Positions 188-16,255 of a stretch of DNA of 21,004 bases are shown piece after piece. This stretch comes from a virus. The notes under the pieces were generated by a model. That model searched no databases. It was not told the origin of the DNA and worked only from the letters and a program-made list of their open reading frames with translations. The position numbers and the translations under genes were made by a program. The stretch covers positions 1 to 21,004 of the IMG/VR virus record IMGVR_UViG_3300046674_000412. One strand, given 5' to 3'. Position 1 is the stretch's first letter; every line of letters starts with the position of its first letter.

Positions 188-1165
188 ATGGCAACGACCC
201 AGCTGGCGGACATCTTTGTCGCCGATTACTACGGCGCTCTGGCGCCGGTCAACTCTCCGGAAAAGACTGCTGTCTTTGAGTCGGGCATCATCACCAAGTC
301 CCCCGAGCTCGATGCCATTGCGCAGAACGGCCAGGGCACCTCGGAAATCAGCTACTGGCAAGACCTGGATGCTGACGAAGAACCGAACATCTCCAACGAC
401 AACCCGGATGACCTGGGTGAAGTTGGCAAGGCAGAGCAGGGCAGCATGCGCGCCCGCACCCTGTACCTCAACAAAGGCTACGGCGTAGCGGATTTGACCT
501 CGGAGCTTGCCAACTCCGAACCGATGCAGCACATCCGCAACCGTTTCGGCACCTACTGGACTCGCCGCTGGCAGCGTTACCTGCTCGGTGCAGCCCGAGG
601 CGTGATAGCTTCGAACATCTTGAATGATGCCGGTGACATGGTTGTCGACGCCGGTGCGACCATCAGCGCCGGCGCGTTCCAAGATGCTGCCTTCACTTCG
701 GGCGATGCTGCTGATGTGTTTGCTGCTATCGGCGTGCACTCCGTGGTGATGAACCAGATGGTCAAGCAGGATCTCATCGAGTACCTGCGCGACTCCGACG
801 GCAAGATCATCCTGGCTACCTATCTTGGCAAGCCTGTGTTCATGGATGACAGCCTGGTCTACGGCCCTGGCCGCTACCTGTCTGTCTTCTTCGGTCAGGG
901 TGCGTTCGGTTACGGCGAAGGCAATCCAACCGTGCCTGTCGAGCTGGAGCGCAAAGCTTCCGGTGGTAACGGTGGTGGCGCTGAGGTCTTGTGGGAGCGG
1001 AAGACACTCATCCTGCAACCGGCTGGCTTCAGCTGGAAGGGCAGCACCAACCAGAACCTCAGCCCCACCGCCGTGCAGTACGCCGCTGCAGCAAACTGGG
1101 AGCGGGTCTTCGACCGCAAGCAAGTTCCGTTTGCCGCCGTGATCAGCGGCACTGCCACCCCGTAA
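188..1165 (+). CDS. Major capsid protein
   Basis: A 325-residue protein that should form the icosahedral shell, presumably with the HK97 fold used by tailed phages. The N-terminus (MATTQLADIFVADYYGALA) and the segment around residues 60-125, with LNKGYGVADLTSELA and RNRFGTYWTRRWQRYL, match my memory of a capsid family common in Pseudomonas and Burkholderia siphophages. Position agrees: it follows the scaffold-like gene and precedes the connector genes. An AAAGGA ribosome site lies at 172-177. There is no long N-terminal delta-like domain, consistent with a separate scaffold. A strong hairpin follows the stop codon. Confidence 0.9.
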   Translation: MATTQLADIFVADYYGALAPVNSPEKTAVFESGIITKSPELDAIAQNGQGTSEISYWQDLDADEEPNISNDNPDDLGEVGKAEQGSMRARTLYLNKGYGVADLTSELANSEPMQHIRNRFGTYWTRRWQRYLLGAARGVIASNILNDAGDMVVDAGATISAGAFQDAAFTSGDAADVFAAIGVHSVVMNQMVKQDLIEYLRDSDGKIILATYLGKPVFMDDSLVYGPGRYLSVFFGQGAFGYGEGNPTVPVELERKASGGNGGGAEVLWERKTLILQPAGFSWKGSTNQNLSPTAVQYAAAANWERVFDRKQVPFAAVISGTATP

Positions 1166-2439: not shown

Positions 2440-3036
2440 ATGGCAAACAATCGCACCGGCCAATCCGGCAGCTTCGCGCTGAGCCTCGCCGAGTTCGCGG
2501 CTCAAGCCACGGAGGCCATCGACGCCAGTCTGCGCGAGATCATCATCGAGGTCGGTAGCAGCGTCATCCGCATGTCTCCGGTGGGTAACCCTGAGATCTG
2601 GGCGCAGAACGCAGTGGCCAGCCAATACAACAAGGCCGTGGATGATCACAACAGTGACCTGCGCAGCGATCCGGCCAACCTGACAAAGGCTGGTCGACTT
2701 AAGCCAGGGCGCAAGCTGAACGACGGCATGGATATCGTGGCCCCTGAAGGCTACGTCGGCGGGCGGTTCCGGGCGAACTGGCACCTCTCCATTGATGTAG
2801 TGGAGAGCGTGACCTTTGACGAGGTTGATCCAGGCGGGCAAGCAACAATCGCTGCATTGGTTTCGGCTGTCAGCGACTTCACCGCCGGACAGACTGCCTA
2901 CCTGATCAACAACTTGCCGTATGCCATTCCGCTTGAGTTCGGGCATTCGACCCAGGCACCCGGCGGCATGGTCCGCATCACCGTGGCCCGCTTCCAGCAG
3001 ATCGTGCAGGAGGCCATCAGGAACAACCAGATATGA
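2440..3036 (+). CDS. HK97 gp10-like tail completion / neck protein
   Basis: A 198-residue protein. The ATG at 2440 is preferred because GAGGG at 2428-2432 lies seven bases upstream; a TTG at 2434 would add two residues and overlap the previous stop. Residues ~155-195 carry NLPYAIPLEFGHSTQAPGG followed by MVRITVARFQQIV, the hallmark YA..LE.GHS.QAP..M ending of the HK97 gp10 / tail-completion family. The first part is helical, and the middle (GGRFRANWHLSID) is also typical. It joins head and tail at the neck. The stop overlaps the next start (ATGA), suggesting translational coupling. Confidence 0.85.
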   Translation: MANNRTGQSGSFALSLAEFAAQATEAIDASLREIIIEVGSSVIRMSPVGNPEIWAQNAVASQYNKAVDDHNSDLRSDPANLTKAGRLKPGRKLNDGMDIVAPEGYVGGRFRANWHLSIDVVESVTFDEVDPGGQATIAALVSAVSDFTAGQTAYLINNLPYAIPLEFGHSTQAPGGMVRITVARFQQIVQEAIRNNQI

Positions 3037-4907: not shown

Positions 4908-7900
4908 ATGAACATTGCAGAACTCGGCATTAAGGTCGACTCGGCTGATGCTGCCCAGGCTGCGACCGATCTCGACAAGCTGACCAAATCCGGTGAGCGC
5001 GCAGAGCAATCCGCCGTTGGCCTGATGAAAGAGATGGAAGCGCTGGAGAAGTCGTTGTCGAAAGGCGCGACCACTACGCAGGAACTGGCCAAGCAGCGCG
5101 AGAGTCTGGCGAAACTCACCAAGACTGGCGCTTATGGCGAGGCAGAGTTTTCCAAGATCACCGCGCAGCTCGATAAGCAGCAGGTGGCCCTGGCCAAGTC
5201 GACGCTGGACGAGCAGAAGGCCCTGAATAGTCTGCTCGGCGCAATCGACCCGGCACGCGCGGCCATGGGCAAGCTCGACACCCAAGTCGAGCAGTTGGGC
5301 AAGCACCTCGACGCAGGCCGGATCAGCCAGGATCAGTACAACGCGGCCCTGGGTAAGATTGACGGTAACTATGCGGCGCTGGAGAAAACCGCCACCGGTT
5401 TCGACCGGCTGAAGCTTGGCACCCGCCAGGCGCAGGAAAACGTCGTACAGCTCGGCAACGCGTTGTCATCCGGCGATTGGGGTAGCGGCGTGCGAGCCGT
5501 CGCTCAGCTGGGCGCAGGTGCTGGCGCTTCTGCTGCTGGGCTGCTTGCCATCCTTGCGCCGATTGCACTGGCCACTGCCGCCGTCGGCGCTCTGGCTGTT
5601 GCCTATTACAAGGGCAGTGAAGAGCAGGATTCCTACAACAAGTCGCTGGTGATGACCGGTAGTTTCGCCGGTGTTAGCGCTGGTCAACTGGGCGAAATGG
5701 CCCGGCAGGTAAGCGCTACGGTGGGTACCACTGGCCAAGCTGCTGCTGTTCTCGCGCTGCTGGCTGACAACGGCAAGATCGCAGGCGAGAGTTTCACCGG
5801 CATCACCCAGGCCGCCGTTTCTATGCAGGAAGCGACGGGTAAGGCTGTCAGCGAAACCGTCGCCGAGTTCTCGAAGCTTGCCGACGATCCGGTGAAGGCA
5901 TCTGCTGCACTGAACGAGCAATACCACTACCTGACCGCCTCGGTTTACTCGCAGATCGCAGCACTGGAAGAGCAGGGCGACCACGCAGGCGCTGTGAAGC
6001 TGGCGACCGAGCAATACGCGGACGCAATCAACGAGCGCACGCCGAGAATCCTTGAAAACCTAAGCTTCTGGGAGAAGGGTTACAACGCTGTCGCGCGTGC
6101 GGCTGACAACCTGAAAAACATCGGTCGCAGCAACATCGGCTCCGATATTGAGCAGGCTCAGCGTGATCTGGCCCGGGCAGAGTCTGGGGATGTTGGCCTG
6201 TTTCAAAACAAGCAGGAAATGATCGACCTCTACCGCAACCGGCTGAATATGCTGGAGGACCAGAAGGCCGCTGAAGCAGACATTGCCAAGTACGACGGCG
6301 AGCAGGCCAAGGCACAGCAAAGCGCAGTCGTGGCGATGTCCAAAGTGGACGCGATCACCAAGTCTTCGCTGACCAATGAGCAGAAGCGCGCCGAGGCGAT
6401 CAAGGATTACAAGAAAAGCCTTGATGATATCCGGAAGGTAGACCCGAAAGACTCTCGGCTTGATCCGGCAGCAGTCGCCAAGAACATGGCGAACCTCAAC
6501 GACAAATTTAAGGACCCGAAGGCTGCCGCAGGCAGTGCTGACCTGACCAGCTTCAACAACGCGAAGAATGTATTGGCCGAAACCCTGGCCTACTACAAAA
6601 ACGCGGACAAGGAGCTCGAAGCATCGCAGCGGGCTGGGGTGATCTCTCAGGCCAGTTACACCGAGCAGCGCGTCAGCCTGCTGAAGCAACAGTCGGAAGA
6701 GGTTGCCCAGAGTTACCAGTCGGAAATCGATGCACTCGAAGCGGCCAAGGCAAAAAAGGGCACAACCGCGGCGCAGGTCATCCAGATCGATCAGAAGATC
6801 GCCGATGCCCGCAGCGCCATGGTCAAGGCGCAGCAGGATAGCGACAGCGAACTGTCGATCATCGCCACCAACGAAGAAGGTCGTCTGCGCAAGCAGACTC
6901 TGGCTGTCAGCACGTACACCAGCGCGCTGCAGCAACAGGTCGAGACACTTCGGCAGCAAGGGCTGCGAGCGGCTTCTGGCCTTGGCCAGGGTGACCGCCA
7001 GCGTGGGCTGACGGATCAGCAGAACGGTATCGATGACCGCTTCAATCAGCAGAGCCTTGAACTGGCCAACCAGTACGGCGACGGCTCGCGCGGTATGAGC
7101 CTCGATGAGTACACCCAGAAGCTGGCTGCGCTGAAAACCACCCAGCAGGACCTGCGCGACACTGTGCAATCCAACTATGACGAGATGACCGCCGCCCAAG
7201 GCAACTGGAGCGCCGGCGCGTCGTCGGCATGGCAGAACTACCTGGAGTCGGCGCGAGATGTTGCCGGGCAGACGAAAAGCTTGTTCAGCAACGCCTTCAG
7301 CTCGATGGAAGACGCGATCGTCAACTTCGCCATGACTGGGAAGGCGTCGTTCGGTGATTTCGCGAAGTCGATCATTGCAGACATGGCGCGCATAGCTACT
7401 CGTCAGGCCAGCTCGGCGCTGCTGGGTAGCTTGGTCGGCGCCGCCACCAGTTATTTCACTGGCAGCGGTACCGCTGCTTCGGCGGGATCTACTCAGGCAG
7501 GCTACGGCGGCGACCTTTCAGGCTTTACGCCGGTGGCCAGCGCTAAGGGCAACGTCTTCGACACGCCAGGCCTGAGCGCCTACTCGAACAGCGTGGTCAG
7601 CTCTCCGACCATCTTCCCGTTCGCCAAGGGTGCAGGACTGATGGGAGAGGCCGGACCGGAGGCGATCATGCCGCTGACCCGGACAGCCGGCGGTCAGCTC
7701 GGTGTGCGTGCGCTGAGCGGTGGCAGCAGCGGATCGAACATCAGCATCAACGCGCCGGTCACCGTGGCGATTCCGGATCGCAGCTCTGAAGGGATGCAAC
7801 TCGACCAGCAGGCGCTCTCGCAAAACCTCCAGACGCAGATGAAGGCCGCAGCAGAGAGAGCCGTGGCTGAGTCTTGGCGCGCTGGCGGTGTCAGTTTTCG

Positions 7901-7922: not shown

Positions 7923-8260
7923 TGGCGATCGAGACGTTCATTTGGCCAGCGCAGTACGGCGACTCACCCGAGATTACCTATCGGGTGCGCACCGCGCAGT
8001 TTGGTGACGGCTACAAACAGGAGTCCGGCGACGGGCCGAACAACAAACAGGACTCCTATCCGATCTCCTACACCGGGCCAAAGACCAAGGTGCTGGAGAT
8101 CATGAAGTTCTTTGATCGGCATGCCGGCGCCAAGGCGTTCCTCTGGACCACTCCACTTGGTGAACTGGGGTTGTTTACCTGCAAAAAGCCGGTTCCTACC
8201 CCGATGGGCGGGGGCGCATTCAAGCTCACGGCCACTTTCGACCGTGCATTCCAACCATAA
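7922..8260 (+). CDS. Minor tail protein M-like
   Basis: A 112-residue protein whose ATG shares a base with the tape measure stop; GGGAGGG at 7911-7917 is its ribosome site. It shows the phage_min_tail pattern: an IWPAQYGDSPEITYRVRTAQFGDGY start, then GAKAFLWTTPLGE and a final KLTATFDRAF strand. Lambda gpM acts at the tail tip, joining the initiator complex to the tube. Position between H and L homologues agrees. Length is close to that of lambda gpM (109 residues). Confidence 0.9.
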   Translation: MAIETFIWPAQYGDSPEITYRVRTAQFGDGYKQESGDGPNNKQDSYPISYTGPKTKVLEIMKFFDRHAGAKAFLWTTPLGELGLFTCKKPVPTPMGGGAFKLTATFDRAFQP

Positions 8261-9811: not shown

Positions 9812-9964
9812 ATGCAGAAGAAAGAGGAAGTGCGTTCGGAAGGCAAGCTAGGCAGCACCGAGTCGTCTACAAATACATCCTTGCGCGAGGATTGGAGGGT
9901 GCTGATGGTCAGGCACCCTCAAACCGGTTTTTACTACGCTGCCGGCCTTAAGCTCGGCCAGTAA
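9812..9964 (+). CDS. Small hypothetical protein after K
   Basis: A 50-residue protein. The ATG at 9812 is chosen because GGGAGAA lies five bases upstream; an in-frame ATG at 9767 would overlap K by 20 bases. The first half is polar and charged (MQKKEEVRSEGKLGSTE); the second half, REDWRVLMVRHPQTGFYYAA, looks like a folded beta segment. I do not recognise a family. Its last 17 bases overlap the end of a convergent minus-strand gene. It may be the first gene of the accessory block between K and I. Confidence 0.55.
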   Translation: MQKKEEVRSEGKLGSTESSTNTSLREDWRVLMVRHPQTGFYYAAGLKLGQ

Positions 9965-10196
9965 TCGCCTGAGACAGGTTATCGAGGTAGCTATCGTGCA
10001 GTGCTTTATCGATGCCCTCGAAACTTTCAGCCTTCAGATTTTTGAGGTCCTGGGAAATTACGCTAGCTATTGCATCGTTGCCGAATGCAAGACGCCGCCC
10101 GAGCACCGCTGCCGCGTTCAAGTTGAAAACAATTGCAGTCTTGAGTGCTAACTCTAATTCAGCCAGGCGTTGATCTACTGTTTTCTGATTACTCAC
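9948..10196 (-). CDS. Minus-strand small helical protein, unknown function
   Basis: An 82-residue protein on the strand opposite to the tail operon. It starts with GTG at 10196-10194 and has a perfect AGGAGG at 10207-10202, five bases upstream; the nearby ATG is followed directly by TGA in its own frame. The sequence is soluble and helical: QRLAELELALKTAIVFNLNA, then LKNLKAESFEGIDKAL. No domain is recognised. The ribosome site lies inside a TGACCT-CCT-AGGTCA dyad. Orientation and position suggest a moron expressed from the prophage rather than a virion gene. Confidence 0.65.
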   Translation of the reverse strand: MSNQKTVDQRLAELELALKTAIVFNLNAAAVLGRRLAFGNDAIASVISQDLKNLKAESFEGIDKALHDSYLDNLSQAITGRA

Positions 10197-10271: not shown

Positions 10272-10342
10272 AATCCATTGTGTGGAGGCAGGAGGCTACT
10301 ACGGAGGGTGGCGAGGCGTTACTGGGGATTCGTACAGGCGAG

Positions 10343-10362
10343 AAAACCCGGACGTCGCCGGG
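10343..10362 (-). terminator. Weak terminator after the minus-strand membrane protein gene
   Basis: Read on the minus strand, CCCGG at 10362-10358 pairs with CCGGG at 10351-10347 around a six-base loop and is followed by TTTT at 10346-10343. It stands 16 bases after the stop of the 53-residue gene. The stem is only five G/C pairs, so efficiency is uncertain. Confidence 0.45.
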
Positions 10363-10378
10363 CTCGTTAGGGAGTGAT

Positions 10379-10540
10379 TCAGCGCGAATCTGCTTTCCGC
10401 GCGCGCCGACGAGAGGATCCTTCACTTCGTTTACGAAGCCACGTAGCGATAGCGTGTATCGGATGGAGGACGGCAGCGAGCACGCCGAGAAAAAGGATGA
10501 TGAAAATGATGATCAGCGGGAAGCTTTCATGCGAGAACAT
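10379..10540 (-). CDS. Small single-span membrane protein (minus strand)
   Basis: A 53-residue protein. The ATG at 10540-10538 is preferred over one seven codons upstream because AGGAGT at 10553-10548 lies seven bases before it. Residues ~8-35 (PLIIIFIILFLGVLAAVLHP) form a clear transmembrane helix. The tail, WLRKRSEGSSRRRARKADSR, is strongly basic and should face the cytoplasm by the positive-inside rule. I recognise no family. Small phage inner-membrane proteins encoded by morons often act in superinfection exclusion or host interference, but nothing here proves that. A small regulatory or toxin-like protein is also possible. Confidence 0.6.
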   Translation of the reverse strand: MFSHESFPLIIIFIILFLGVLAAVLHPIHAIATWLRKRSEGSSRRRARKADSR

Positions 10541-10604
10541 GGTGGGTACTCCTGTAGTCACTATGTCGGAACCCGCAGACTAGACGCTTGGAGCGATGGT
10601 TTCG

Positions 10605-10620
10605 ATGAACGTATGTTCAT
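10605..10620. promoter_or_regulatory. Inverted repeat between divergent accessory genes
   Basis: ATGAAC at 10605-10610 and GTTCAT at 10615-10620 are perfect inverted arms around GTAT. The site lies in the 192-base gap between the minus-strand membrane protein gene and the plus-strand lipoprotein gene, the right place for a shared operator. A weak plus-strand promoter (TTGGAG, 18 bases, TATGTT) would overlap it; that promoter call is poor. Confidence 0.35.
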
Positions 10621-10732
10621 GCTCTGGCGCTTGAATTGTGATACGGCGCCTGAGAAAAGATTTTCGAAACGTACCGAAATCGCAGGGCATAACCGGTGAT
10701 ATCGTGCACCCTTTCCCACAGGAGTGACCTGC

Positions 10733-11131
10733 ATGAAATTATTCGTAGGGGCGTTGGCTGTTGCGATACTGGCTGGGTGTGCTACATCGCCCACGCCATC
10801 TAGCGAAGCCGACCAAGTTCCGCCGGCAAGACTGTTCTCATATCAGCAGCCAATCAGCGGTCAGTCGATTCTGATAGTGACTCGGGATACTGGATTTGTT
10901 GGTGGTGGCTGCAATACGACAGTGAGCATCGATGGCAGGAAATCAGCCGAAATAGGATCGGGAGAAACAGCGAAGTTTTTCGTCCCGGCAGGTGATCACA
11001 TCATTTCAGCGTCAGCATGTGGCAGCGGCCTGAAAGAGCGAGAGGCCAGCATCCAGCAGGGGGGCACAAAGCGTTTCCGAATATCCATCGACTCTGCGAT
11101 GAGCATGGATTTATCACCAACATCGTTTTAA
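10733..11131 (+). CDS. Phage-encoded lipoprotein
   Basis: A 132-residue protein from the ATG with AGGAG at 10720-10724, eight bases upstream. Residues 1-16 (MKLFVGALAVAILAGC) are a lipoprotein signal with lipobox LAGC, so Cys16 should be acylated. Ala17 at +2 favours the outer membrane. After a Pro/Ser linker, residues ~42-132 form a beta-rich domain with TTVSIDGRKSAEIGSG and KFFVPAGDHIISASA, like DUF2846/PEGA-type surface domains. Cys60 and Cys96 could form a disulfide. It is not a virion tail protein by sequence. Position between K and I recalls lipoproteins such as Cor of phi80-type phages that block re-infection; that role is inferred. Confidence 0.85.
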   Translation: MKLFVGALAVAILAGCATSPTPSSEADQVPPARLFSYQQPISGQSILIVTRDTGFVGGGCNTTVSIDGRKSAEIGSGETAKFFVPAGDHIISASACGSGLKEREASIQQGGTKRFRISIDSAMSMDLSPTSF

Positions 11132-11134
11132 AGG

Positions 11135-11158
11135 AAACCGCCTCAGGGCGGTTTTTTT
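11135..11158 (+). terminator. Strong intrinsic terminator after the lipoprotein gene
   Basis: AAACCGCC at 11135-11142 pairs perfectly with GGCGGTTT at 11147-11154 around a TCAG tetraloop, and the T-run extends to 11158. It starts four bases after the lipoprotein stop and 16 bases before the start of I. It would end transcripts of the accessory block; late transcription must read through it. Confidence 0.9.
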
Positions 11159-11765: not shown

Positions 11766-11768
11766 GCA

Positions 11769-11797
11769 TTGACAGCGTGACACTTTGATCGTATTTT
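11769..11797 (+). promoter_or_regulatory. Sigma70-type promoter after I
   Basis: TTGACA at 11769-11774 is a perfect -35 box, followed after exactly 17 bases by TATTTT at 11792-11797, which matches four of six bases of the -10 consensus. Transcription would start near 11804 and meet the first terminator only about 25 bases later. A promoter inside a late tail operon is the classic mark of a moron expressed in the prophage state. Start-site mapping would settle it. Confidence 0.65.
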
Positions 11798-11827
11798 TGA
11801 GCCATTGTGGACATTTTAGTAAGTAGG

Positions 11828-11848
11828 GCGCCTAAAGGCGCTTTTTTT
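11828..11848 (+). terminator. Leader terminator 1
   Basis: GCGCC at 11828-11832 pairs with GGCGC at 11837-11841 around TAAA, followed by seven T. It is the first of three in a row and is followed by TTGTGCC, a flank shared by all three. Confidence 0.8.
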
Positions 11849-11864
11849 GTGCCTGCTGAAATCT

Positions 11865-11881
11865 GCATCCAATCAGGATGC
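11865..11881 (+). other. Small hairpin in the KilA-N leader
   Basis: GCATCC at 11865-11870 pairs perfectly with GGATGC at 11876-11881 around AATCA. No T-run. It lies between leader terminators 1 and 2. Confidence 0.4.
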
Positions 11882-11895
11882 TGGACATAATGGAG

Positions 11896-11917
11896 GGGGA
11901 AATGACAGTATTTCCCC
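11896..11917 (+). promoter_or_regulatory. Hairpin hiding the ribosome site and start of a 15-codon reading frame
   Basis: GGGGAAAT at 11896-11903 pairs perfectly with ATTTCCCC at 11910-11917 around GACAGT. The 5' arm contains part of the purine-rich ribosome site (GGAGGGGG at 11892-11899) and two bases of the ATG at 11902. If it folds as RNA, it would block translation of the small frame. Confidence 0.5.
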
Positions 11918-11949
11918 ATGATGTGACAAAAGCACCCAGAGCGCCCTGA
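11902..11949 (+). CDS. Possible 15-residue leader peptide
   Basis: An ATG with a very strong GGAGGGGG ribosome site encodes MTVFPHDVTKAPRAP and stops at TGA 11947-11949, which lies in the loop of leader terminator 2. A short frame that ends inside a terminator hairpin resembles attenuation leader peptides. There is no run of one amino acid codon to suggest a sensed substrate. It may also be a remnant of a lost gene. Translation is unproven. Confidence 0.35.
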   Translation: MTVFPHDVTKAPRAP

Positions 11950-11961
11950 GCGCTTTTTTTT
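11938..11961 (+). terminator. Leader terminator 2
   Basis: GCGC at 11941-11944 pairs with GCGC at 11950-11953 around CCTGA; the stem extends outward by A-T, G-T and A-T pairs into the run of eight T at 11954-11961. The flank TGTGCCC follows. Confidence 0.75.
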
Positions 11962-11977
11962 GTGCCCAGAAAATGCC

Positions 11978-12014
11978 AAAGCCTCGAACGCCTAAAGCGT
12001 CTCGGGGCTTTTTT
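11978..12014 (+). terminator. Leader terminator 3
   Basis: A long stem runs from AAAGCCTCGAACGC at 11978-11991 to GCGT at 11997-12000 and TCGGGGCTTT at 12002-12011, with one bulged C at 12001, one G-T pair and a CTAAA loop. The T-run extends to 12014. It is the strongest of the three leader terminators. Confidence 0.85.
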
Positions 12015-12026
12015 GTGCCCGCGAAT

Positions 12027-12106
12027 CCCCCTTGGGGATACCCCGTGCAGGCTAGGTTCGCTACCGAAAAGGGTCGGTTTCGCTCCGCCTACGCCCCTGC
12101 CTGCAC
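12027..12106 (+). other. Structured non-coding stretch before the KilA-N gene
   Basis: A small dyad ATCCCC-CTT-GGGGAT lies near 12025-12039. Then GTGCAGGC at 12045-12052 pairs perfectly with GCCTGCAC at 12099-12106, enclosing possible inner pairs TAGG 12053-12056 with CCTA 12088-12091 and ACCG 12063-12066 with CGGT 12075-12078. This can fold as a closed multi-stem element ending 15 bases before the KilA-N ribosome site. It is not a tRNA. An RNA regulatory element or a recombination scar are both possible. Confidence 0.4.
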
Positions 12107-12133
12107 ATCTTTCCCAGGCGGAAGGAGCTCAAC

Positions 12134-12631
12134 ATGAACAACGTCATCCCATTTCACTACGAAGGTCAGGCTGTTCGCTTCAATAGCGAGGGCTGGATCA
12201 ATGCAACAGATGTGGCCAAACGGTTCAGTAAGAAGCCCGCCGAGTGGCTGCGCTTGCCCGACACAGCAAAGTATATGGGCGCGCTGGCCAGACATTTAAA
12301 TGTGGGGGAATCCCACCTTTTAACCCGCAGCACCAAAGGACGCAGTGGCGGTACGTGGCTGCACCCAAAGTTGGCCGTGTCTTTCGCCCGCTGGCTGGAT
12401 GTGGACTTCGCCGTTTGGTGCGACCTGCATATCGACGCATTGCTGCGCGGCGAATTGAACGAAAAGCAGCAGTTCGAGCGGGCATGCAAGAAGTTGGGTG
12501 ATGCGCAATCTGTGGCGAGTCTTAGTGGAAAGGAACTCGCCAAGTTTCGCTGGAAGAAGCCTGGGCTGGTTCATGAGGTCGAGTACTGGCGCGATCAGTT
12601 ACAGCTGACTTTAGGTCTCGACGCTGCATAA
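12134..12631 (+). CDS. KilA-N domain protein
   Basis: A 165-residue protein with GAAGGAG at 12121-12127, seven bases before the ATG. The KilA-N domain covers about residues 5-105, with FNSEGWINATDVAKRFSK near 17-34, AEWLRLPDTAKYM near 37-48 and GGTWLHPKLAVSFARWLD at 72-89. KilA-N is a DNA-binding domain of phage and large DNA virus proteins; P1 KilA is host-lethal when overexpressed. The C-terminal third (KQQFERACKKLGDAQSVA) is helical and may hold an oligomerisation or partner domain. The gene is flanked by terminators on both sides and preceded by a sigma70-type promoter, so it looks like an independent cassette inserted between I and J. Target unknown. Confidence 0.88.
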   Translation: MNNVIPFHYEGQAVRFNSEGWINATDVAKRFSKKPAEWLRLPDTAKYMGALARHLNVGESHLLTRSTKGRSGGTWLHPKLAVSFARWLDVDFAVWCDLHIDALLRGELNEKQQFERACKKLGDAQSVASLSGKELAKFRWKKPGLVHEVEYWRDQLQLTLGLDAA

Positions 12632-12651: not shown

Positions 12652-12676
12652 GCCCGCCAGCGAGCGGGTTTTTTTT
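12652..12676 (+). terminator. Terminator between the KilA-N gene and J
   Basis: GCCCGC at 12652-12657 pairs with GCGGGT at 12664-12669 (outer pair G-T) around CAGCGA, followed by eight T. It isolates the KilA-N cassette from J. An ATG at 12650 within it is in frame with J but is not the real start. Confidence 0.8.
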
Positions 12677-12691
12677 CGCCTGGAGGAAAGT

Positions 12692-15600
12692 ATGGGCGCA
12701 GCACAGAAGATCGACATCCACGGCGCGAAGGGCGGGGAGAGCAAACCAAAATCACCGACTGAGGCCAGCGATAGCCTGCGCTCGACTAACCTGGCCAAGC
12801 TACTGATCGCCGTGGGCGAGGGCGAGTTCGACGAAGTCCCAACCGATTACGACATCTATCTGGACAACACCCCGATCCGGGACGCGAGCGGTAACTACAA
12901 CTTCCCTAATGTGAAGTGGGACTGGCGCTCGGGTTCCGTCGACCAAACCTATATCCCTGGTATTCCATCGGTCGAAAACGAAACCACGCTCAACGTAGAG
13001 CTGCGCAGCGATTCGCCTTGGGTGCGATCGATCAGCAACATTCAGCTTTCAGCCGTGCGTGTCCGTCTGGCCTGGCCTGCACTGCAGCGCCAGGATGACG
13101 AAGGCAACATTGGCGGCTACCGAATCGACTACGCCATTGATGTGGCAACCGACGGCGGCGCCTATCAGCAGGTGCTGGTCGATGCCGTAGACGGCAAGAC
13201 CGCCACTCGTTACGAACGCTCGCCGCGCATCAACTTGCCGGACGCTACCGTCGGCTGGCAGATCCGCGTCCGCCGCCTGACGCCGAACCAGAACAGCAAC
13301 AAGATCGCTGACACCATGTTGATTGCCGGTTACACCGAGGTAATCGACGCAAAGCTGCGGTACCCAAACACCGCGCTGCTCTACATCGAATTTGATGCCG
13401 AGCAGTTCACCAACATTCCAGCCGTCACCGTGAAGTGTCGTGCGCGCAGATGGCAGGTGCCGAGTAATTACGACCCGATCGCCCGGACCTACACCGGGAC
13501 TTGGGACGGTTCCATGAAGCAGGCATGGACCAATAACCCGGCTTGGATCACTTACGGCATTTGCACTGAAGACCGTTTCGGCCTGGGCAAACGCATCAAG
13601 TCGTTCATGGTCGACAAATGGGAGCTCTATCGGATTGCGCAATATGCCGACCAACTGGTGCCGAATGGCCTCGGCGGTGTAGAGCCTCGCTTCCTTTGCG
13701 ACATGAACCTGCAGGGCAAGGCGGATGCCTGGTCGTTGCTGCGCGACATCGCCGGTATTTACCGAGGCATGACCTACTGGGCTCAGGGCCAACTGGTTAT
13801 GCAAGCGGACATGCCGCGCGCGCAGGACTTCGACTATGTGTTCACCCGCGCCAACGTCATCGACGGGAAGTTCTCCTACGGCAGCGCCTCGGCCAAGACT
13901 CGGTACACCCGGGCTCTGGTCAGCTACGACAACCCGGCGAACAACTACGACACCGATGTGATCCCCTTCGCGGACTTGGACCTTCAGCGCCGCATGGGTG
14001 ACAAGCCGACCGAGCTGAGTGCAATTGGCTGCACCCGTGCGTCCGAGGCGCAGCGCCGCGGCAAGTGGGCGATCCTCAGTAACAATCAAGACCGTACCAT
14101 TTCGTTTAAGACCGGCATGGAGGGGGTGATCCCGCTCCCGGGCCACATCATCCCTGTGGCCGATTCGCTGCTGGCGGGCCGTGAGGTCGGCGGACGCATC
14201 TCTGTCGTCGCTGGCCGTGTCGTGACGCTGGACCGTGACACCCAGGCCAAGGCCGGTGATCGCCTGATTATCAACCTGCCGGGTGGCAGGGCTGAAGGTC
14301 GCACTGTGCAAAGTGTGAACGGTCGCGCCGTGACCGTGACCACCAACTACAGCGAAGCACCACTGCCACAGCTGCAATGGGCATTGGACGCCGATGATTT
14401 GGCGATTCCGCTGTACCGCGTGCTGCGGACCAGGCGCACCGCCGAGGGCGACTTCGAAATCAGTGCTCTGCAGTACGACCCGAGCAAGTTCGCTTTTATC
14501 GACACCGGCGCACGCCTGGAAGAGCGGCCGATCAGCGTGATTCCGATCACCGTCGTTCCGGCGCCGGCCAGCGTGACCGTTACGTCAAACTCGGTGGTGT
14601 CCCAGGGCATCGCCGTGGCCACCATGACCATCACATGGCCTGCTGTGAATGGCGCAGTCGGCTACGACGTTGAGTGGCGTAAGGACAGCGGCAACTGGAT
14701 CAAGCTGCCGCGCACCGGTGCGACCGGTGTTGACGTGGTGGGCATCTACGCCGGTGCCTACGTGGCCCGTGTCCGCGCGGTGAGTGCCTTCGATATCTCG
14801 TCGATCTGGCGCAACTCGACCCTGACCAACCTGAGGGGCAAGGAGGGTCTGCCGCCGGCGCTCAGCTATCTGACGGCGACACCACTGTTGTTCGGTATCT
14901 ATCTGAAGTGGGGCTTCCCGGCTGGCGCAGAGGACACCCAGCGGACAGAGATCTGGCACGGCCCGACGACCAGTTTGGAAGCCGCTACCAAGCTGACAGA
15001 CTTGTCCTACCCGCAAAGCGATTTCTCGATGCTGGGCTTGCGCGCAGGCGTGACGCTCTACTTCTGGGGTCGCCTGGTGGATCGGATCGGCAATATCGGT
15101 CCGTGGTACCCGATTGGTATGGGCGTGCAGGGCCAATCGAGCGGCGACGCCGCGGCCATTCTGGAAATGATCGCTGGCGAGATTGGTCGGACAGAACTCG
15201 GAAAGGACATTCTGGACGAGATCGACAAAATCCCAGACCTGCAGGATCAGATCGACCAGCTCGATGACATTTTGCTGTACGACCCGGAAAAGACGTACGT
15301 CGCCTCGGACATGGTGCGGATGGGGCAACGGCTGTATCAGGCGGCTCAGACCGTGCCGGTCGATACCCCACCGCCAGATCCGGAATACTGGCTGGACATT
15401 GGCAAGTCCATCGAGACGGCAAACGGTCTGGCTGAGCAGGTTGCCTTCAACACTGCGGACATCATCGAACTTGACGGCGAGGTCACTGCCCAGGCCACGG
15501 CGTTCCAAGCCTTGCGCGCCTCATGGCGTGAGGACGACGGGAGCGGCGATCTGGCGGATGCCCTGAAGGGCTGGAGTAGCACCGCGGCCATAGCCACTGA

Positions 15601-16255
15601 GGAGAAGGTCCGAGCTTCGGAGAACCTCGCCAGCGCTCAGAAAATCACGACGCTGACGGCGGCAGTGGGTGAAAACGAAGCGAACGTGACGGATCTGCGG
15701 CAGGTCGTGGCCACCGACAGGGAAGCGACCGCCAAGGCGATCACCCAGGTCAACGCCAAAGTCGGAGAGAACGCTGCTGCCATTCAGGAGACTGCCGAGG
15801 CATTCGCAGATGTTGACGGCAACTTGCGCACGATGTGGTCGGTGAAAATGTCCGTCACTGCCAGCGGTCAATACGTTGCCGCAGGCATTGGTCTTGGTAT
15901 CGAGAACGTGAACGGGGTGTTTCAAAGCCAGTTCCTTGTGAGCGCCGATCGCTTCGCAATTGTAAACACCATCGCCGGCGGCGCCATCTCGGTTCCGTTT
16001 GCGGTGCAGGGTGGCCAGGTGTTCATGAACTCGGCGTTCATAGCAGATGGCACCATTACCAACGCCAAGATCGGCAGCTACATCAGCTCGACCAACTACA
16101 TCGCCGGCCAGCAAGGCTGGATTCTCAACAAGGACGGAACCCTGGAGATCAACGGCATCGTTCCTGGTCAGGGGCGGCTGGTAATCAACTCGCTACACGT
16201 CTCTGTCTACGACGCCAACAACGTGTTGCGTGTCCGGCTCGGCTATCTGGGGTGA
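12692..16255 (+). CDS. Tail tip / host specificity protein J-like
   Basis: A 1187-residue protein starting at the ATG with GGAGG at 12682-12686. The first ~600 residues match lambda gpJ-type hubs: LAKLLIAVGEGEFDEVP, FPNVKWDWRSGSVDQTYIPG, and near 241-300 NIPAVTVKCRARRW then AWITYGICTEDRFGLG. A fibronectin type III-like domain spans ~623-715. A short aromatic module at ~863-905 (YDPEKTYVASDMV, GQRLYQA, PDPEYW) resembles carbohydrate-binding CBM5/12 units. Residues ~930-1043 are helical coiled-coil sequence, and ~1045-1187 form a DUF1983-like beta end (FIADGTITNAKIGSYISS). It forms the central hub, contacts the host receptor and probably determines host range. Two small tip genes follow directly. 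Confidence 0.95.
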   Translation: MGAAQKIDIHGAKGGESKPKSPTEASDSLRSTNLAKLLIAVGEGEFDEVPTDYDIYLDNTPIRDASGNYNFPNVKWDWRSGSVDQTYIPGIPSVENETTLNVELRSDSPWVRSISNIQLSAVRVRLAWPALQRQDDEGNIGGYRIDYAIDVATDGGAYQQVLVDAVDGKTATRYERSPRINLPDATVGWQIRVRRLTPNQNSNKIADTMLIAGYTEVIDAKLRYPNTALLYIEFDAEQFTNIPAVTVKCRARRWQVPSNYDPIARTYTGTWDGSMKQAWTNNPAWITYGICTEDRFGLGKRIKSFMVDKWELYRIAQYADQLVPNGLGGVEPRFLCDMNLQGKADAWSLLRDIAGIYRGMTYWAQGQLVMQADMPRAQDFDYVFTRANVIDGKFSYGSASAKTRYTRALVSYDNPANNYDTDVIPFADLDLQRRMGDKPTELSAIGCTRASEAQRRGKWAILSNNQDRTISFKTGMEGVIPLPGHIIPVADSLLAGREVGGRISVVAGRVVTLDRDTQAKAGDRLIINLPGGRAEGRTVQSVNGRAVTVTTNYSEAPLPQLQWALDADDLAIPLYRVLRTRRTAEGDFEISALQYDPSKFAFIDTGARLEERPISVIPITVVPAPASVTVTSNSVVSQGIAVATMTITWPAVNGAVGYDVEWRKDSGNWIKLPRTGATGVDVVGIYAGAYVARVRAVSAFDISSIWRNSTLTNLRGKEGLPPALSYLTATPLLFGIYLKWGFPAGAEDTQRTEIWHGPTTSLEAATKLTDLSYPQSDFSMLGLRAGVTLYFWGRLVDRIGNIGPWYPIGMGVQGQSSGDAAAILEMIAGEIGRTELGKDILDEIDKIPDLQDQIDQLDDILLYDPEKTYVASDMVRMGQRLYQAAQTVPVDTPPPDPEYWLDIGKSIETANGLAEQVAFNTADIIELDGEVTAQATAFQALRASWREDDGSGDLADALKGWSSTAAIATEEKVRASENLASAQKITTLTAAVGENEANVTDLRQVVATDREATAKAITQVNAKVGENAAAIQETAEAFADVDGNLRTMWSVKMSVTASGQYVAAGIGLGIENVNGVFQSQFLVSADRFAIVNTIAGGAISVPFAVQGGQVFMNSAFIADGTITNAKIGSYISSTNYIAGQQGWILNKDGTLEINGIVPGQGRLVINSLHVSVYDANNVLRVRLGYLG

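Follow-up and report, generated by a model that had tools for sequence, protein, structure and literature searches.

Here we describe an RNA element of the int-alpA type in a viral sequence of 21,004 nucleotides (IMG/VR record IMGVR_UViG_3300046674_000412, positions 1 to 21,004; hereafter the window). The element occupies 12045–12128, immediately before the start codon of a KilA-N gene, and probably acts in cis as a switch on KilA-N translation, within a cassette that three terminators (T1–T3) would insulate. Covariation supports a three-way junction directly upstream of the start codon and, in comparisons across unrelated families, the loop of the third helix (L3) changes together with the leader that it faces. 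The original prediction, made from the letters of the window, had proposed that this leader controls the KilA-N gene. A control leader is probably present, although the part of it with strong comparative evidence is an RNA switch that acts on ribosome binding, an element that the prediction had not recognized. The features are listed in Table 1.

Table 1 Features of the KilA-N cassette and its surroundings in the window
Feature	Position	Strand	Evidence or remark
Unit A promoter, TTGACA-17-TATTTT	11769–11797	+	Scan; boxes kept in 11 aligned KilA-N cassettes
Terminator T1 (unit A)	11825–11848	+	Stem with T-run; about 57 bp from the start of the −35 box
Unit B, weaker paralogue of unit A	11882–11917	+	−35-like TGGACA (11882); dyad GGGGAAAT/ATTTCCCC
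15-codon frame in unit B	11902–11949	+	TGA inside the T2 loop
Terminator T2 (unit B)	11938–11961	+	Stem with T-run
Terminator T3	11980–12014	+	Stem with T-run; kept in 14 of 14 KilA-N cassettes compared
Small hairpin, ATCCCC-CTT-GGGGAT	12025–12039	+	Between T3 and the RNA element
Three-way junction, int-alpA type	12045–12106	+	Rfam RF02996, model R1, covariation
P1	12045–12052/12099–12106	+	
P2	12055–12057/12063–12065	+	J1/2 UA before P2
P3	12070–12073/12095–12098	+	J2/3 GAAA before P3
Loop L3	12074–12094	+	UCCGCCU (12084–12090) pairs with site 1; GCUCC (12082–12086) pairs with site 2
Site 1, AGGCGGA	12116–12122	+	Pseudoknot partner of L3
Shine–Dalgarno AGGAG (12123–12127) and site 2 GGAGC (12124–12128)	12123–12128	+	Can also pair with UCUUUCC (12108–12114)
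KilA-N gene, 165 amino acids	12134–12631	+	PF04383, 2.9e-20
Native I–J junction terminator	12652–12677	+	Occurs also between I and J in phages without KilA-N
Tail-tip gene J	12692–16255	+	Start most likely at 12692 rather than 12650

An int-alpA-type junction and the genes behind it

The Rfam model of the int-alpA RNA (RF02996) matches 12045–12119 with 36.6 bits, narrowly passing the gathering cut-off of 35.8. Close relatives of the window element score between 32.7 and 38 bits with this model, and relatives of the types found in phages D3 and PS-1 are missed by it. Two MAFFT alignments misplaced the types with a longer P3, and we thus built our own covariance model, R1, from type A4 and aligned the remaining types to it; the window element scores 61.8 bits with R1. 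Across 40 aligned distinct elements, 96.4% of the cells in P1, P2 and P3 are paired, compared with 77.0% in shuffles, and the covariation is 0.505 against 0.134 in shuffled alignments (0 of 500 shuffles; all slid controls ≤0.084).

The window element has the nested P1–P2–P3 structure by which RF02996 is recognized. There is no U-run right after P1 in the window, which has ACAUCUUUCCC at this place, and many relatives have short U-rich linkers. The element also does not lie between an integrase and an alpA gene, but between the tail genes I and J. The integrase–alpA setting is the source of the family name rather than a sequence criterion. By name, int-alpA occurs in only one paper of the literature that we searched, within a table of predicted small RNAs (sRNAs), without follow-up there.

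DNA that is around 92% identical precedes a Rha/P63C gene in phages YMC11/02/R656 and vB_PaeS-D14C, and diverged copies precede KilA-N genes in phages PS-1 and D3, in which the gene, orf11, encodes a relative of the window KilA-N protein. All four phages share the architecture of the window, with the element immediately before KilA-N or Rha and unannotated in their records; unlike the window, R656 and D14C carry two tandem copies. Searches with exact core patterns recovered 58 (first pattern) and 77 (second pattern) viral stretches and 5 genome contigs, including Desulfogranum, Pseudomonas, Brachymonas and an alphaproteobacterial metagenome-assembled genome, and these counts from IMG/VR and genome scans are lower bounds drawn from biased samples. 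A genus-wide genome search with R1, limited by first-look filters and by the rarity of such prophages, found the element in 3 of 149 genomes.

The element precedes genes for KilA-N, Rha, HNH homing-endonuclease, DUF927 primase-like and methyltransferase proteins, as well as terminase-region and island genes. Among 45 downstream proteins of different types, the domains found were HNH_3 (14), HNH (5) and HNH_5 (5), which are overlapping families, DUF927 (7), and KilA-N, Rha and DUF7487 (2 each); others include methyltransferase and LAGLIDADG-type domains. Genes can evidently move behind such leaders, as comparison of two pairs of viral stretches suggests: L182/L184 and L189/L209 share a leader, which is followed by an HNH gene in one pair and by a resident gene in the other, and in L184 the HNH frame stops where the resident gene goes on without a start of its own.

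Several arrangements of element and gene were observed besides. The HNH gene of L184 (467–1060), aligned with L189 from 9148, stands exactly between the common leader and the third codon of the resident gene (MARKRLSAPAIEKL), taking over both leader and start codon; the resident gene possibly encodes a terminase large subunit. In L005, L006, L090 and L137, and likewise in L019, L039, L049 and L058, two elements stand in tandem: a gene-less D3-type copy comes directly before an element of a second type, which has a Rha or KilA-N gene. The arrangement looks like the outcome of a replacement in which a new element–gene cassette took the place of the first element's gene. In L136, two copies with an identical P3 loop (7119–7168 and 8045–8094) lie on either side of a Rha gene, so that this phage may have two genes under common control.

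Complementarity of loop L3 to the ribosome-binding site

Immediately 5′ of the start codon, the leader carries sequence complementary to loop L3. Most families have two such sites, one upstream of the Shine–Dalgarno sequence (site 1) and one on it (site 2), and in most families no more than about 10 nt separate the end of site 2 from the start codon. A primase-like leader, for example, combines L3 GCCGUC with GACGGU and GGACGGC, and an HNH leader combines CUUCCGA with UCGGAAG and CGGAAG.

For each loop, we computed a score with the leader of its own gene and, by derangement, with the leaders of other families. With 16 families that are not fully independent by descent, each given by one representative with a hand-delimited loop, the own-leader score was 15.9 compared with 10.75 (s.d. 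0.56; 0 of 18,275 derangements), and the score for two disjoint sites was 28.3 compared with 19.4 (s.d. 0.85; 0 of 18,269 derangements). For an independent set, 23 loops delimited by script, neither score was reached by any of 20,000 derangements, and the outcome was again 0 of 20,000 in 21 Rfam-type members (the class of Pseudomonas genome G001). The search patterns cannot have created this match, because they fixed only the junction core and neither L3 nor the leader. A cruder version with whole-duplex energies, in which the P3 arms took part, gave a far weaker result: 4 of 20,000 shuffles were as good and many single elements were unremarkable. Because the G/C-rich P3 arms dominated that version, we used the loop alone instead.

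In the family of the window itself, the 7-bp helix with site 1 hardly varies, and support for this helix therefore comes from other families. The second pairing, of L3 with the Shine–Dalgarno sequence, is kept by a compensatory change in one member of the window's family (L046); in L109, the L3 pairing is shifted in register. With pseudoknots left out, the predicted minimum-energy fold favours a different pairing within the element, together with a UCUUUCC/GGAAGGA hairpin that covers the Shine–Dalgarno sequence. As a general feature, a hairpin at this place (P4) was rejected: taken over all leaders the signal is weak (mean z = −0.34), although it is clear in the Rfam-type members. Judged by covariation, the element pairs with the Shine–Dalgarno region of its own gene, as expected of a leader that sequesters the ribosome-binding site.

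Other KilA-N genes have a second, unrelated structured leader before their start, in L062, L070, L074 and L087 (around 2890–3000) and in phage HK544 (L004, 1180–1290). It is a long hairpin with an outer strand, such as CCTCAT, that is able to base-pair with the Shine–Dalgarno sequence (ATGAGG), and it has no Rfam match in L062, L070 and L074. Phage vB_Pae_U6 (L003) has a KilA-N gene without an int-alpA element, and around 2 kb from this gene, at 655–875 (minus strand), a C4 antisense RNA with its a1/b1 target and an isrK-like match.

An accessory cassette between tail genes I and J

The KilA-N cassette extends from the stop codon of I to around 12650 and, by comparison with related phages, is an accessory insertion (moron) between the tail genes I and J. 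We surveyed this junction in the 80 closest viral relatives of gene I, of which 77 are complete and 3 are ended by a contig edge. The site is empty (a short native junction) in 53 of the 77, holds other inserts in 23 and holds KilA-N in one (L245); on this evidence it is a hotspot of accessory DNA. The combination of promoter, GGCGC terminator and RNA element was seen in L245 alone among the 80, and the promoter unit and the int-alpA-type element are each missing from 76 of the 76 complete relatives without KilA-N. Morons are expected at sites that are empty in close relatives, as here, and to have a promoter and terminator of their own: in the window a promoter exists, terminators come straight after it and the terminator at the 3′ end was there before the insertion.

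In phages with an empty site, the native junction already contains a hairpin with a T-run and the Shine–Dalgarno sequence of J (GCCGCCC..GGCGGTTTTTTTTCGCCTGGAGGAAAGCATGG). The terminator first ascribed to KilA-N (12652–12669) is this old I–J terminator and thus not the gene's own. The C terminus of the KilA-N protein resembles ORF11CD3 with 22.8 bits, under the Pfam cut-off of 25. Elsewhere in the window, a second accessory cassette with a small lipoprotein gene (phrog_890) and a terminator behind it lies just before I (10724–11156), and between K and the lipoprotein gene there are open frames (9948–10196, minus strand; 10280–10699, plus strand) that have no Pfam or PHROG match.

The structures first proposed upstream of KilA-N are all present, namely the promoter after the I stop, the three intrinsic terminators and two other hairpins, GCATCC-AATCA-GGATGC (11865–11881), which was not seen among the relatives that we read, and GGGGAAAT-GACAGT-ATTTCCCC (11896–11917). 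A simple scan of 1.7 kb found 7 terminator-like sites compared with 2.3 expected by chance. One promoter of such quality was found where 0.7 are expected by chance; the boxes alone are therefore insufficient, and conservation must decide, as indeed it does. A TTGAC-N17/18-TANTTT promoter followed by a GGCGCC..GGCGCTTTTTTT terminator occurs in 11 of 11 I–J KilA-N cassettes with a variable spacer, and the −35 box is degenerate in one of these (L014). T3 has a predicted folding energy of −20.1 kcal/mol (z = −3.6), which 0 of 200 shuffles equalled. The numbers of promoter–terminator units and of terminators vary among relatives, some of which have unit B and others not.

The 15-codon frame exists and its length is kept in five relatives, but it carries no coding signal (63, 82 and 67 differences by codon position; 19 synonymous versus 110 non-synonymous). 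The expectation that the promoter is kept only with KilA-N fails in its strict form: in L318 (reverse strand, from 1453) the unit lies between I and J ahead of a gene for a 42-amino-acid membrane-like peptide, without KilA-N, and L319 has a unit without KilA-N at another place. A weaker form holds, in that the unit is absent from the 76 complete relatives of gene I that lack KilA-N. The promoter unit is thus one of a family of moron modules and is not specific to KilA-N. A search of annotated phages with the promoter–terminator interval alone gave no match. An isrK-like match at 11865–11960 (21.5 bits, where the cut-off is 50) and a Histone3 stem-loop match were taken as chance. Between T1/T2 and T3, L008, L029, L036, L037 and L038 have a conserved block of two stable hairpins (GTCGGGAAACCGACACCCTGAACCGGAAATGATCGANAGGTCATCCGGGCAGTAA; −22 to −24 kcal/mol in the four copies folded), which is present neither in the window nor in Rfam.

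Proposed mechanism, alternatives and known systems

We postulate that the junction presents L3, which would either tie up the ribosome-binding site (site 2) or sit on a decoy copy (site 1), with KilA-N made in only one of the two states. A two-state switch of this kind fits all three predicted pairings, of L3 with site 1, of L3 with site 2 and of UCUUUCC with the Shine–Dalgarno sequence. T1–T3 would stop both transcripts from the nearby promoter and read-in transcription in the lysogen, and would keep KilA-N silent outside the late phase. To reach J and the genes that follow, late transcription has to read through these terminators, presumably by antitermination; on the late mRNA, the RNA switch would then set the output of KilA-N.

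A rival reading, which takes up the attenuated leader of the original prediction, places the control in transcription: the promoter at 11769 would be KilA-N's own and T1–T3 would be regulated stops that open in several steps on a signal, in an antitermination-dependent manner resembling pR′–tR′. The promoter–terminator units are indeed conserved, with boxes and T1 at nearly fixed spacing even though the spacer varies, T3 present in every cassette compared and no promoter unit where the cassette is missing. However, we found no antitermination or attenuation device, whether an antiterminator fold, a utilization site or a coding leader peptide (the 15-codon frame being the candidate); terminator number varies, and the unit also accompanies genes other than KilA-N or stands without it (L318 and L319). 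We consider this reading unlikely. The other original proposal, a pile of junction remnants from lost cassettes, holds in part and has a better, although still less than even, prospect of being correct. Units A and B would be leftovers of earlier morons with deleted genes and would have no present role, in keeping with the different inserts at this hotspot, the varying number of units, the optional unit B, the similarity of T1 to the native junction terminator and the repetition of TTTTTTGTGCC behind T1, T2 and T3. Against this, the distance from the start of the −35 box to the terminator stem is 57 bp in both units, and the promoter hexamers are constrained while the spacer is free. Such an origin of the two units and the RNA switch can be true together.

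A stand-alone small RNA that acts in trans is what the Rfam type of int-alpA ('Gene; sRNA') would imply, and unit A, a promoter with a terminator around 20 nt past the start, might itself be the gene of an sRNA of about 45 nt. The position of the element, mostly no more than about 40 nt from a start codon, the match of its loop to the leader of that very gene and the lack of a terminator U-run after P1 in the window copy make this improbable. Still less probable, and rejected as the main reading, is a DNA element for self-immunity. Prophages encode BstA, a protein that has a KilA-N-like domain and, at the start of its gene, an element of 63 bp for self-immunity, aba; aba is DNA-based, and its terminal CCCGCC direct repeats overlap the start codon (PMC8585504). 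The window likewise combines a KilA-N protein and a short element at the gene start, and PADLOC gives a weak match of 30 residues. Yet no terminal CCCGCC repeats and no overlap with the start codon are present in 12040–12170, the window protein has 165 amino acids (KilA-N and an ORF11CD3-like domain) rather than the 307 of the two-domain BstA, conservation tracks RNA pairing, and the element also stands ahead of HNH, primase-like and methyltransferase genes.

Beyond the KilA-N switch, we tentatively suggest, as an idea that we would not yet favour over its negation, that int-alpA-type RNAs constitute one large class of translation switches in phages and islands, riboswitch-like or controlled by a host factor. 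In this class a conserved three-way junction would toggle an anti-Shine–Dalgarno loop between a decoy and the real site on one common signal. The genes controlled would be those for homing endonucleases and antirepressor-like proteins as well as replication genes. A family that is catalogued as an sRNA with no assigned function would thereby gain a concrete and testable role, that of gating translation of the gene that follows. It would also tie together the leaders of seemingly unrelated KilA-N, Rha, HNH, primase-like and terminase-region genes, and suggests one expression lock common to mobile phage genes. Because D3, a laboratory phage of Pseudomonas aeruginosa, has a copy of the element, the idea is directly testable.

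The window element shares with RF02996 the nested fold of three helices and the core (UA, GAAA and CU), and the members of that family found in genomes show complementarity of L3 to the Shine–Dalgarno sequence as in the window. It differs from the sRNA gene in an integrase–alpA setting that Rfam describes in being the leader of a moron among tail genes, with no U-run after P1. RNA structures have been shown or implicated in lowering translation of mobE and segB, which are stand-alone homing endonuclease genes of phages (PMC3014915). The genes mobE of Aeh1 and segB and I-TevI of T4 are mobile phage genes with a ribosome-binding site that is folded away (PMC3014915), as proposed here for KilA-N, and many of the genes behind int-alpA-type elements are HNH homing endonucleases. 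Those structures are hairpins, some with an internal late promoter, whereas the window element belongs to one conserved pseudoknotted family that is common to unrelated genes. The folding of the ribosome-binding site in these stand-alone endonuclease genes is the functional precedent for the proposed KilA-N switch.
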